From Trichocoleus sp. (GTDB taxonomy: Bacteria > Cyanobacteriota > Cyanobacteriia > Elainellales > Elainellaceae): a DNA stretch of 45,591 nucleotides. Location: the NCBI GenBank assembly GCA_036702865.1, contig DATNQD010000073.1, forward strand, positions 1 through 45,591. Reading direction: 5' to 3'. The notes under the pieces were generated by a model. That model ran no database searches, was not told the DNA's origin, and worked only from the letters and a program-made list of their open reading frames with translations. Positions 36,794 through 41,935 of this stretch are shown here, in pieces. Position 1 is the first letter of the stretch. Each line of letters opens with the position of its first letter. The position numbers were made by a program, and so were the translations under genes.

Positions 36794-37183
36794 TTGCCCC
36801 CGATTCAGCACCCCTTTCAACATGGACAAATCTTCTATAGCTTCGGTGGACATTTTACCTACCGGGTAATTGGTCCTTGCTGTCGGCTGTTCGATCGAGA
36901 AGAACTGCCCTGGCCCTGCTGTCGGTTGCAATGGCGTAGTAAGGAACCCAGTTGGCGGCGAGTAGGCAAGCGGTTTGTGCCAGACATCGCTACAAAAAGC
37001 AGCCCCTCTTATGCGGTAGAAGTACTGGGGCAAGAATATTCTGGGCGAACCATGATTGTGACGCTCTACTCTGTGAAGCTGTCGCCCGAGTTGAAGGAAT
37101 GGTGGCATTCCAAGAAGCTGCAAGAAGTAAGCCCTTTACCGCCGAGTCAAATTAGTGCAAGACTAGCTGCGCCGCTGAGTTGA
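36794..37183 (+). CDS. Hypothetical protein (129 aa)
   Basis: I do not recognise this family. The frame starts at TTG, preceded at 9-10 bases by AAGGAGA, a strong ribosome binding site that decides the start. The product is soluble, with paired cysteines (GPCCRLF and PWPCCRLQWRS) that might bind a metal, and conserved-looking aromatic segments (VTLYSVKLSPELKEWW). A frame on the opposite strand covers much of it but has no start signal. Its last 32 bases overlap the end of fetB tail to tail. Confidence 0.6.
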   Translation: MPPIQHPFQHGQIFYSFGGHFTYRVIGPCCRLFDREELPWPCCRLQWRSKEPSWRRVGKRFVPDIATKSSPSYAVEVLGQEYSGRTMIVTLYSVKLSPELKEWWHSKKLQEVSPLPPSQISARLAAPLS

Positions 37184-37931
37184 AGAACTGGCGATCGAGT
37201 CCCTGAATCAGCAAGATTGTCGTCATTAGCGTTGTAATTGCCAGGATAAACATAATCAGCATTTGATAAAGGGCTGCATCGAGTGGGTTTACGCCGCTCA
37301 AGATTTGACCCGTAATAATTCCAGGCAGGGTAACGATTCCAACAACCATCATTGAATTAAGCGTTGGGATGAGCCCAGATTTAATTGCTTCTCGACGATA
37401 TTGGGCGGTTGCCTGTTGAGGAGTTGCCCCTAAGCTCAAGTGAGTTTCAATTTCAAGGCGATTGTTATTAATCGTGCTGACAAAACGCTCGCCGCCGATC
37501 GCCGCTGCATTCATCGCGTTACCGAGCAGAATCCCGGCAATAGGAATCAGGTACTGAGGTTCAAACCAGGGATCAGGACGCAGCACCAGCAGATTCACAT
37601 AAGCCAGCGTCAGGGCAGTGCTAATCAAAATTGAGCCGCCCACAATTGGTAAGAGAGCCGGGATTTTTTTGCTAATCCGATTTCGAGCTACGATCGCTGC
37701 GATCGAAACCATGACGCCAATCACCGCCAGCACTGCCCAGGGGTTGTTGAGCGCAAATACGATTTGCAGCAAGTATCCCACCACCGTCAATTGCACGATC
37801 GTCCGTCCGGTTGCCATTGCCAGACTCCACTCCAGGCTCAATCGCTGCCAAGCCGAAAGCCCGATCGCGATGAGCATTAAGCCCAACGCAAAGCCCATTT
37901 TTACGAGGTCGAGTTCAATTAGCCCGTTCAT
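37152..37931 (-). CDS. fetB: UPF0014 family ABC permease (FetB-like)
   Basis: 259 residues, about seven membrane helices. GNAMNAAAIGGERF, EIETHLSLGATPQQA and LIPTLNSMMVVGIVTLPGIITGQILSG are typical of FetB/ALS3-like permeases. In E. coli FetAB exports iron; plant relatives affect aluminium tolerance. The ATPase partner FetA is not adjacent. Plasma membrane. The end overlaps a convergent small gene. Confidence 0.9.
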   Translation of the reverse strand: MNGLIELDLVKMGFALGLMLIAIGLSAWQRLSLEWSLAMATGRTIVQLTVVGYLLQIVFALNNPWAVLAVIGVMVSIAAIVARNRISKKIPALLPIVGGSILISTALTLAYVNLLVLRPDPWFEPQYLIPIAGILLGNAMNAAAIGGERFVSTINNNRLEIETHLSLGATPQQATAQYRREAIKSGLIPTLNSMMVVGIVTLPGIITGQILSGVNPLDAALYQMLIMFILAITTLMTTILLIQGLDRQFFNSAAQLVLH

Positions 37932-38054: not shown

Positions 38055-40133
38055 ATGAACTTGCCTTTTATTGTAGATGTTGCGATCGGATTAGTTTTTA
38101 TTTATTTGATTCTTAGCTTGCTCTCCTCCGAAATTCAAGAAATTCTTGCAACTATTTTGCAATGGCGAGCTGCCCACTTAAAGAAGTCAATTGAGATTTT
38201 GTTAATGGGCGATACTGGCAGAAAAGGGAATGCCATCAACTTGGCGCAGCAAGGAATATTTAAAACACCCGCTGAACTAGCTCAGGATGTAGCTGGTCAA
38301 TTAGAAATAGCTGGTAATGAAGAGCTTCAAAACAAAATTGAGCAGCTCATTATTAGCTCAAACGGCACTGCAACTGAGCGGGCAAAATATCTAGTTGACG
38401 AATTAGAAAATCTAGGGCTTTTGGGCAACCAAACCAAACAAAAGACAGATGTTTATACAACCCTTGAGGGTGGCTTCATTCTAGAAGAGTTATATAAAGC
38501 AAAATCAATTACCAATACCATCTACAATAATCCACTTGTTCGGAACATTAGTCAGGAGTCTAGAGAGGGGTTTGAAGGCTTAATTCGTAGCATTACGCGC
38601 ACAGTCATCACATTAGGAGGGCAAAGGAGGACGACGCTCAAACATGGCAACGAACCCTCTTACATTCCTTCAGAAACCTTTGCCACAACCTTACTCGAAA
38701 TTCTGCACGTTCCTCGATTTACTCGCCGTTTAACAGCTTTAAATCTAAAAATCCTGGTTCAGGATCAAATCGTTTCAGATGTTGAAAAAGCAGTTAAAAA
38801 ATATCAGGAGCAGGGAAAAAATCAAAAGCTAAATGAATTTATTGGCGCAGGCTTTGATAACTCCAAACAAAAAATCAACCTGATTCTCAAGGCTTTTGCT
38901 GATGAAAGAATTACTTTACAAATGAGTATTAGTCTCCTGAAGGGAGAATTCATTGAATATGTCACCAAAGCAGAACAAATTCGGAAGAACCTTGCTTCTC
39001 ATTCCGCATCAAAAGAGCCTGTCTCAAAAGAGATAGAACGATCGCAAGCTGCCGCTCAAGATTTAGCTGCCTTTGACGGGTTTGTGAGCCAACTCAATGC
39101 TATTCGTCAACTCGTTTTTTATGACGACCCGCAACGACAATTCAGCAGCACTGATGAAATGATTCGACAACTGCAGCCCACTGTTGCACAGGTGATGAAA
39201 GCATTTAGCAGCGATCTCCAAAGTGTCAATCAAAAATATCAGCGATTTACAAACAGATCATCACTACGCGAAGATCCAGCATTTCAGTCAGGTTACAAGG
39301 AAATCATCACTCTCTATGACGAGATTCAACGAGATGCGCAAGCCATTGCCCAAAAGCTACCTGCTCCTGTTAGAGAAAGCCTGGATGCGCTAGCTCAACG
39401 TGCCCAAATCAACCTCGATCGCACGAACGAGCAAATTAGCCTGGTTCAAGGCGAACTCTACCAATTCAAATCCGAGATTGAGAAATGGTTTAACGACTCA
39501 ATGGAACGGGCTTCCGGTGTGTACAAACGGAATTCGAAAGGAGTCGGCTTCCTGATTGGGCTAACGATCGCCCTAGCCATTAACGCCGACACAGTTCACA
39601 TCGCCAGACAGCTTTCCTCCAACAGCACGCTCAGACAAGCACTGATCTCTTCCGCAGAGACCGTTACACAGTCCTGCCCTAAACCCTTGCCCCCTCCAGC
39701 TACCACACCGCTTCCTGCTGCTCCGGTTCCACCTATCACTGAGCCAGTTCCACCTGCCGCAAATCCGCCCACTTCTCGTCTTTTCTTTGAGCAGCCTGCT
39801 TTTGCTCAAGCTGCTCCAACCGCAGCACCAGTTCAACCTGTACCGCAGTCCGACGACCCCCTAAACTGCATTGAACAAGCAGTCAAAGACGCAACCGCTC
39901 TGCCCCTAGGCTGGAGTAAAGAAAACAAAGCACAGCAGATGGACTTTGTGGACGGCAAACCGAAAGACCCAAGCACCTGGGGGCGAATCTGGCGACAAAT
40001 CACTAGGCTAATTGGCTGGATCGTGAGCGGTCTGGCAATTTCGATGGGAGCTGCTTTTTGGTTTGAGTTGTTAAGCAAGCTGGTCAACGTGCGGAATACC
40101 GGCAACCGTCCTAATAAGTCGTCTGGTGCTTAA
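38055..40133 (+). CDS. Large uncharacterised membrane protein (692 aa)
   Basis: I do not recognise a named family. An N-terminal membrane helix (~4-24) is followed at once by [19 protein letters not shown]. Residues ~30-490 form a long charged helical region with Gln/Glu-rich coiled-coil-like parts. [15 protein letters not shown] (~484) precedes a second helix ([14 protein letters not shown]), then a Pro-rich stretch (~542-575), then a third helix ending [19 protein letters not shown]. The layout, a YKR-type motif before helix 2 and GA-FWF-LL before a C-terminal tail, recurs in uncharacterised bacterial membrane proteins. The first ~1 kb looks more AT-rich than its neighbours. It overlaps lepA by 4 bases tail to tail. 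Function unknown; transfer is possible. Confidence 0.85.
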
Positions 40134-41935
40134 GAAAGCTTCAACACTGCCATAAATGCCTCCTGGGGCACATCTACAGTCCCGATCGCCTTCAGACGTT
40201 TCTTACCCTTGGCTTGCTTTTGCAACAGTTTCTTCTTCCGGCTAATGTCACCGCCATAGCACTTTGCTAACACGTCTTTCCGCAAAGCTGGAATATGTTC
40301 GCTGGCAATGATCCGGCTGCCGATCGAGGCTTGAATGGGGATTTTGAACTGGTGACGTGGAATCAACTCTTTCAGCTTTTCGACCAACGCTTTGCCCACA
40401 TAATAGGCTTTGTCGCGGTGAACGATCGTCGCCAGGGGATCAACCTTGTCGCCATTGATCATCACATCTAGCTTCACCAGATAGTTTTCGCGGTAGCCAA
40501 TAAATTGATATTCCATGCTGGCATAGCCGCGCGATCGAGATTTCATCTGGTCGAAGAAGTCAGTTACGACTTCAGCCAGCGGAATTTCGTAGATCAAAGT
40601 GGTGCGTCCTTGCGTCAGGTACTTCATGTCCTTGAATTCACCGCGCCGACTCTGGCTCAATTCCATCAGCGCCCCTACATATTCTTCCGGCGTAATCATA
40701 TCGACTCGCACGTAGGGTTCTTCCATCTTCTCGCGGTACTGCGGATCGGGCAGCAGGCTGGGGTTGTCAATAAAGACGACTTCTCCATCAATTTTCGTGA
40801 CGCGATAGATTACGGAAGGCGCGGTTGTAATCAGGTCAAGGTTATATTCACGCTCCAGCCGCTCTTGCACAATTTCCATGTGCAGCAAGCCTAAGAAGCC
40901 ACAGCGGAAGCCAAATCCCATTGCACTCGATGTCTCTGGTTCATAGCTGAGGGCAGCATCATTAAGGCGCAGTTTTTCGAGGGCTTCGCGCAGATCGCCA
41001 TATTGGTCGGCATCAGTGGGAAAAAGACCACAAAACACCATCGGTTTGGCTTCAGCATATCCAGGCAGAGGTTCTGAGGCGGGCGCATTTGCCAGCGTAA
41101 TCGTGTCACCGACTCGCGCATCCGCCACGGCTTTAATTGAGGCAGCAATGTAGCCTACTTCTCCGGCATGGAGTTCATCAACCTGGATCTGCGTGGGTGA
41201 CAGCACGCCGAGTTCATCGATTTGACATTCTTTGCCCGATGCCATGAGGCGGATTTTGTCACCTTTGCGAACTTTGCCATCCATGACTCGGAAATAGACA
41301 ATGACGCCCCGGTATGAGTCATAGTAGCTGTCAAAAATGAGTGCTCGTAGGGGCTGATCTACGGTGTCTTGAGGTGGCGGCACCAGGTAGACGATCGACT
41401 CTAGAATCTCATCAATTCCAATCCCTTCTTTTGCAGAAGCCAAAATCGCACCACTGCAATCAAGTCCAATAATTTCTTCAATTTCGCCCTTGACGCGCTC
41501 CGGCTCTGCTCCCGGCAAGTCGATTTTGTTAAGCACTGGAATGATTTCTAGATCATTCTCTAGTGCCAGATAAACATTTGCCAACGTTTGCGCCTCTACG
41601 CCCTGAGAAGCGTCTACGATCAAGAGTGCGCCTTCACAGGCAATCAGCGATCGAGAAACTTCGTAGGAGAAATCGACGTGTCCCGGCGTGTCGATCAGGT
41701 TCAAGACGTACTGCTGCCCATCTTTGGCAGTGTAATTCATACGAGCTGCCTGGAGCTTGATAGTAATGCCGCGCTCTCGCTCCAGGTCCATATTGTCAAG
41801 GAATTGCTCTTTCATCTCCCGATTGCTAACGGTTCCCGTTGCCTGGAGCAGCCGATCTGCCAGGGTAGATTTCCCGTGATCAATGTGAGCAATAATCGAG
41901 AAATTCCGAATGCGAGAAACAGGTACGTCGGTCAT
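40130..41935 (-). CDS. lepA: Elongation factor 4 (LepA)
   Basis: 601 residues, normal length. The GTPase domain starts [21 protein letters not shown], with RERGITIK and DTPGHVDF; the later domains include [14 protein letters not shown] and the C-terminal LepA-specific [18 protein letters not shown]. It acts on the ribosome to back-translocate or aid assembly under stress. The stop overlaps the convergent membrane-protein gene by 4 bases. Confidence 0.98.

Follow-up and report, generated by a model that had tools for sequence, protein, structure and literature searches.

A widespread, uncatalogued membrane protein family that may serve as a platform for co-encoded enzymes, and its orphan member in a cyanobacterium

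A large membrane protein encoded in a 45,591-nucleotide stretch of Trichocoleus sp. DNA (contig DATNQD010000073.1, hereafter the window) was found to be a member of a family that, judged by sequence searches, is uncatalogued and widespread; the copies of Pfam and NCBIfam that were searched contain no model of it. Outside the cyanobacteria its members often precede an enzyme gene, which the first-pass annotation of the window had missed, as it had the fact that the end motif of the protein is common to the family in about 14 phyla among the matches listed. We tentatively read the family as a membrane platform serving an enzyme that is encoded beside it and mostly lacks a signal peptide, a reading that is quite possible and short of probable; it accounts for the pairing, the overlap and the scarcity of signal peptides, and the C-terminal tails suggest docking in one clade. 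The window gene is an orphan member, whose own role can be suggested only weakly. The features of the gene and its two neighbours are as follows.

38055..40133, + strand: whole gene, uncatalogued membrane protein with three hydrophobic segments (692 aa, ATG start)
38067..38123, + strand: hydrophobic segment 1 (aa 5-23), by hydrophobicity; model helix 3-35
38127..38204, + strand: helix [26 protein letters not shown] (aa 25-50); E29 and R38 family-invariant
38214..38504, + strand: lineage-specific helical insert 1 (aa 54-150), AT-rich, with 30-33% identity even to the three nearest relatives
38523..38699, + strand: conserved region YxxPL, PSYIPxxxFAxxLL (aa 157-215); P201, Y203 and F209 invariant
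38715..39344, + strand: helical insert 2 (aa 221-430), from alignment and model
39477..39533, + strand: motif [19 protein letters not shown] (aa 475-493) just ahead of segment 2, from alignment
39540..39596, + strand: hydrophobic segment 2 (aa 496-514); N510 nearly invariant
39675..39884, + strand: linker (aa 541-610), rich in Pro and largely unstructured, lying in the loop that joins segments 2 and 3, from sequence and model
39900..39914, + strand: LPLGW motif (aa 616-620), from alignment
39999..40055, + strand: hydrophobic segment 3 (aa 649-667), by hydrophobicity
40047..40103, + strand: family signature [19 protein letters not shown] (aa 665-683), from alignment
37152..37931, - strand: divergent neighbour, 259-aa membrane protein, its place also held in genomes G005 and G023
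40130..41935, - strand: convergent neighbour, presumably lepA, with a stop-to-stop overlap of 4 bp with the window gene

The 692-aa reading frame at 38055-40133 is real, and its 4-bp overlap with the gene that we take from its sequence to be lepA was likewise borne out, the two genes being convergent and overlapping stop to stop. The same neighbours, lepA and the divergent gene that we assume to be FetB-like, flank the family gene at the same place in two genomes of the same taxonomic family; lepA adjoins it in G005 and sits just past a split copy in G023, and the FetB-like gene and the family gene are separate in the other relatives seen. The place of the gene is therefore conserved in a small group but not phylum-wide, and the window's genome holds a single copy. 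The same-place copy of G023 (L041:8524-10745) is split into frames of 580 and 98 aa, with part of its middle region matched again, and is rearranged and possibly broken.

The first description of a large membrane protein with no recognised domain stood up to the searches. The protein had no match in Pfam or PHROGs and one weak match in PADLOC (E 0.0066); the PDB (best E 0.031) and NCBIfam, where the best score of 16.6 bits compares with a cut-off of 450, gave only noise. Neither did 62 scanned relatives match a named family; when 63 members were searched against Pfam, PHROGs and NCBIfam, no family was matched by more than one member, a family profile found nothing in the PDB, and no earlier description of the family was found in the open literature. 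The structure model of a compact 319-aa relative (L107) reached a pLDDT of 90.8 and a pTM of 0.83, and that of the window protein was weaker (73.4 and 0.66). Foldseek gave no significant fold match for the compact core (best E 0.86) or the window model (best E 0.78), nor did VIA-align for the compact core (best Z 4.7), and that no transporter or holin fold was matched in these structure searches says little.

The family core comprises ~300 residues with typically three hydrophobic segments, running from an N-terminal hydrophobic helix through a WRAxHLxxSI helix and a YxxPL...PSYIPxxxFA region to WFxxxMxRxSGxYKR, which leads into segment 2, followed by a PLGW motif in the loop and by segment 3 with GAxFWFxxLxK. 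Twelve columns are invariant between the window protein and 70 relatives (E29, R38, P201, Y203, F209, W478, R527, G654, G665, W669, F670 and R680), as counted in alignment A3, which holds the window and 70 of 79 loci; a further alignment, A5, holds the window and 62. The end that had been singled out as distinctive is a family-wide motif. To this core the window protein adds the helical inserts at 54-150 and 221-430 and the Pro-rich linker, and it stops 9 residues past the signature, without the long tail of the amidase-, M15- and GH19-linked members described below. In its model nearly everything is helical, including long helices that separate segments 1 and 2; the Pro-rich stretch at about 541-600 is unstructured. 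The second insert is found in most cyanobacterial members shown, not in L058 and L060, and is missing from the plasmid-borne proteobacterial and the Hymenobacter members shown.

On a crude hydrophobicity scale, exactly three segments were counted in 16 of the 33 cyanobacterial members and in 77 of the 117 others, the rest having one to five. Lysine and arginine were scored around the segments in 106 of 150 members (101 for segment 1), giving means of 3.84 in the 25 residues after segment 1, 3.74 in the 20 before and 2.31 in the 15 after segment 2, and 1.35 in the 15 before and 4.21 in the 20 after segment 3. Per residue, these charges are high after segment 3 and before segment 2 and low before segment 3, a distribution that favours a cytoplasmic C-terminus; the evidence is mixed rather than clean, because the side after segment 2, which would be the outer one, is as rich in them as the side after segment 1.

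With the window protein as sole query, no relative appeared in the first genome scan; relatives were found once the query was an alignment built from seven plasmid-borne and two cyanobacterial sequences. Matches turned up in 28 of the 40 genomes of the nearest sample and in 58 of the 292 genomes of the phylum, the window's own counted in both; among the 58 are three marginal ones, with E values from 4e-4 to 8e-4 and frames of >1,100 residues, which were not counted as members. Outside the phylum, three class samples gave 9/190, 5/185 and 15/198 genomes, each including its centre genome, and a pattern scan of species genomes yielded at least 578 encoding stretches. The titles of the best 80 name Pseudomonadota, Bacteroidota, Acidobacteriota, Gemmatimonadota, Chlorobiota, Nitrospirota, Planctomycetota, Myxococcota, Desulfobacterota-type bacteria, Zixibacteria, Chloroflexota, Verrucomicrobiota and Hydrogenedentes, some of these phyla being our own assumption from the genus, and many of the loci are metagenome bins. 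These 80 are the best of the at least 578 by similarity to one Caballeronia member and so favour the clade linked to amidase and M15 peptidase; one of them, L103, was left out of the counts. The resulting set of 150 loci consists of 33 cyanobacterial and 117 others, the latter being 79 chosen by similarity, 7 from plasmids, 30 from the class samples and one, L150, from a viral collection; L148 and L195 are one gene that enters the count twice, and the centre loci of the class samples and one short match (G847) are not in the set.

Several members stand in settings of their own. One lies on the Nostoc plasmid pNsp_e just after the mobC and relaxase genes (L031:10001-11719), and on alphaproteobacterial plasmids (L033, L037 and L038) a recurring four-gene run ending in a vanadium-dependent haloperoxidase precedes the gene. 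Among the cyanobacteria, one genome (G022) carries a tandem pair (L060:4295-6340), and some members (L043, L045, L048 and L069; L046, L051, L062, L063 and L065) have recurring neighbours, not each everywhere, that were named by eye: upstream a 60-aa zinc-ribbon-like and a 150-aa protein, or alternatively downstream a 600-aa protein with an ArsA-like ATPase. One Herbaspirillum genome (G325) holds four different members (L091, L204, L205 and L206), one of them M15-linked.

The first kilobase of the window gene had been described as seemingly more AT-rich than its neighbours. The GC content of the whole gene, 0.452, is the lowest among the 28 ORFs of >500 bp called by a simple script of our own (next 0.459), and the first kilobase is indeed AT-rich (GC 0.396 with GC3 0.357, against GC 0.505 in the remainder). 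The differing codon choice claimed along with it is only mild, as the codon preference of the gene is third lowest of the 28 ORFs, which puts it near the limit of the range without making it an outlier (of the two ORFs below it, one overlaps another gene), and is alike in the first kilobase and the rest (0.021 versus 0.019). A comparison of GC between the two halves of the family gene, covering 31 of the 33 cyanobacterial members, showed the first to be the AT-richer one in all 31, so the signal goes with the family; in 28 of the 31 it also lay below the flanks of the gene, the window being among the stronger cases. An AT-rich 5′ coding region as a mark of foreign DNA is thus not supported, and a foreign origin was rejected, being also opposed by the placement of all cyanobacterial members on one side of a strong branch and by the same-place copies in G005 and G023, whose GC is near normal. 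A separate case is a close relative of the window gene on an 8-kb contig (L040, G017:C73), with a GC of 0.525 in surroundings of 0.445, which was possibly acquired by transfer; its genome has a second member, L069, on a large contig.

Directly downstream of the family gene and on the same strand, one of nine enzyme classes was found at 44 of the 117 non-cyanobacterial loci and at none of the 33 cyanobacterial loci, the window included. The classes were Amidase_2 (13), M15 peptidase (12), amidohydrolase (7), GH19 (4), muramidase (2), subtilase (2), patatin (2), GH24 (1) and Amidase_3 (1), the count being independent of gene calling save that the enzyme models were built from neighbours called with the simple script. 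At control positions (upstream on the same strand and downstream on the opposite strand) all 150 loci gave four matches, all upstream (L146, L147, L149 and L196), and those at L146, L147 and L149 may be real second partners. By sample, partners were seen at 32 of the 79 similarity-chosen loci, 2 of the 7 plasmid loci and 10 of the 30 class-sample loci (7 amidohydrolase, 2 subtilase and 1 Amidase_3), with none at L150; the cell-wall enzymes (amidases, M15, GH19, muramidase and GH24; 33 of 117 non-cyanobacterial and none of 33 cyanobacterial loci) come mainly from the sample picked by similarity to one member. A Pfam scan of 56 neighbours, tallied without naming members, gave Peptidase_M15_4 (9), Amidase_2 (8), Muramidase (2), GH19 (2) and Phage_lysozyme (1). 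Examples assigned to individual loci by Pfam are Amidohydro_2 (L214 and L222), Amidase_3 (L203), Peptidase_S8 (L220 and L221, and upstream at L200) and Patatin (L146). In 15 of the 39 called pairs the family gene and the enzyme gene overlap by exactly 4 bp, and on a crude scale a signal-like hydrophobic stretch was seen in 2 of the 39 partners, whereas among 545 neighbours further out, at positions 2 and 3, there were 120 with one.

Three candidates suspected by eye were dropped: a trypsin-like fusion in L212 and a chymotrypsin-like neighbour in L205 had no Pfam or PDB support, and a supposed lysozyme beside L101, with no Pfam or PDB match, was not counted. At the cyanobacterial locus L057, genes resembling peptidoglycan-binding proteins adjoin the member on the opposite strand; they were matched by the amidase model, probably through the peptidoglycan-binding domain, and are the only hint among the cyanobacterial loci.

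A conserved partner followed by varying effector classes could also be expected of a conflict or cell-suicide system, in which the membrane protein senses damage or phage and unleashes a hydrolase, patatin, protease or TIR effector, and one member (L198) does sit between a DUF4062 and a TIR protein. We regard this as quite improbable, since TIR or DUF4062 was met at that one locus only among the neighbours scanned, the PADLOC match of the window protein is weak, and the cyanobacterial copies stand alone.

The pairing extends to the C-terminus of the protein. An LPxxxGG tail was found at 12 of 13 amidase-linked loci and at none of 104 others, a tail with a WxxG end at all 12 M15-linked loci and at one of 105 others, and an RPR[DE] tail at all four GH19-linked loci and at none of 113 others; these patterns were drawn up once the tails were known, and loci that are related do not count independently. 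L077, lacking the amidase tail, is counted as amidase-linked, and at the single M15 exception (L082) the contig ends about 90 bases further on, with an M15-like start in frame there. Three of the first four tail exceptions (L096, L109 and L120) were enzymes that the gene caller had missed and to which the tails pointed, the fourth being that contig end. Past the FWF motif, amidase-, M15- and GH19-linked members have 64-128 residues and two muramidase-linked ones 142 and 151, and amidohydrolase-, patatin- and Amidase_3-linked members have only 23-33; partnerless members have a median of 34 (range 20-352), and cyanobacterial members, 21 of the 33 scored, have 25-43.

A tree of the core was built from 145 of the 150 rows (leaving out L061, L201, L202, L207 and L209), with six labels set by hand (L082, L096, L109, L120, L198 and L200) and with L086 placed in a wrong frame (branch 6.3) and unlabelled, though an M15 partner was found for it. 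On this tree the amidase label changes 6 times and the M15 label 8 times, at least 4 and at least 5 of the changes being forced by strong branches; L123, for instance, has an amidase and an amidase tail inside an otherwise M15-rich group. One group of 56 rows (support 93) contains every locus with a cell-wall enzyme label other than L203, and the cyanobacterial branch lies, with weak support, near mixed partner types and orphans. From the match of tail to partner and the joint switching of both labels on the core tree, tail and cognate enzyme seem to travel together.

The tail-partner agreement, the joint switching and the 4-bp overlaps speak against an ordinary structural or housekeeping membrane protein with incidental neighbours outside the cyanobacteria. 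This is an unlikely explanation that still has its own grounds, as none of the nine enzyme classes was present at 73 of the 117 non-cyanobacterial and all 33 cyanobacterial loci, and as the window has a single gene between two conserved genes; the lack of long tails in three partner classes and the mixed charges make it more credible and the platform reading less so. Under the platform reading, the family protein would be a small helical bundle in the inner membrane, most likely with the N-terminus outside and the C-terminus in the cytoplasm, and the partner, where present, would be made in the cytoplasm from the gene that follows, which often overlaps, and would mostly lack a signal peptide. 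In the clade of the cell-wall enzymes the tail, which differs in kind between amidase, M15 peptidase and GH19 partners, would probably recruit the enzyme, and the platform could then act as a holin-type conduit, as ChiW may for ChiX, because these enzymes must reach the cell wall. In the other clades, with an amidohydrolase, subtilase or patatin, contact would be made through the core, long tails being absent from most of these members, and membrane anchoring appears likelier than export.

The cyanobacterial branch keeps the core, with a short end and usually long helical inserts, and is probably a stand-alone scaffold or has a partner encoded elsewhere; with no adjacent partner at the 33 loci, what the window copy may do is suggested by descent only. 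The full proposal of a new pan-bacterial docking platform, carrying an interchangeable tail and its cognate signal-less enzyme on a conserved core and turned in cyanobacteria into a large stand-alone scaffold with inserts, we hold to be rather doubtful. If true, the tail-enzyme module would give bacteria a general means of positioning diverse enzymes at the envelope or exporting them there; should tail and enzyme dock, a short tail could predict the enzyme partner, and the role of a conserved gene of many cyanobacteria would begin to be explained.

Among known systems, the weak match of the window protein to the gliding protein GltJ (NCBIfam NF033761; residues 478-600, covering segment 2 and the Pro-rich stretch) stays at its 16.6 bits far from the cut-off and is shared by 1 of 63 members only, so it is probably compositional. 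Type 10 secretion, in which holin, endolysin and spanins together release cargo, is also comparable.

In Serratia marcescens, ChiW is a predicted inner-membrane holin with three segments, on which ChiX, a peptidoglycan hydrolase without an obvious signal peptide, relies; the dependence is relieved when ChiX is given a foreign signal peptide (PMC5778951). The likeness to our family lies in an inner-membrane protein of three predicted segments encoded with a signal-less peptidoglycan hydrolase, though none of the searches made here related the family to this pair. The family differs in being large and matching no holin family in three libraries, in a partner class that varies beyond cell-wall enzymes, in the matched C-terminal tails of some members, and in the cyanobacteria examined, which have no adjacent partner.

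These features bear on whether the family is truly holin-like, forming or opening passages for a signal-less endolysin in lysis or in secretion like that of type 10. The ChiW precedent and the sharing of one downstream place by unrelated cell-wall hydrolases (amidase, M15, muramidase, GH19 and GH24), as in phage lysis cassettes, are in its favour, whereas the amidohydrolase, subtilase and patatin partners of other clades are not, nor is the absence of any holin family match (Pfam, PHROGs and NCBIfam, E 0.01) among the 63 members. In size, too, the core of ~300 aa and the 692-aa window protein contrast with holins, even the largest of which are rather small according to a review (PMC9527704). 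There is little sign of phage origin, as one member used as query had no match in 50,697 phage records and two pattern-based scans of 2.9 million viral contigs found one locus, L150. We accordingly consider a true holin improbable, and a phage holin by descent is unsupported by the phage, viral-contig and holin-family searches. Downstream of the sole viral-collection match (L150:10001-14339) lies an 849-aa protein whose start resembles, by eye, that of an 837-aa protein, with no Pfam match, beside the Herbaspirillum paralogue L206. Set beside phage holin-endolysin cassettes, the family is thus distinguished by its near absence from the phage and viral collections as searched and by its ~300-aa core, and it shares with them an arrangement in which a single membrane gene precedes a cell-wall hydrolase drawn from several unrelated families; if tail and enzyme dock, it would be a counterpart of holin and endolysin outside phages.
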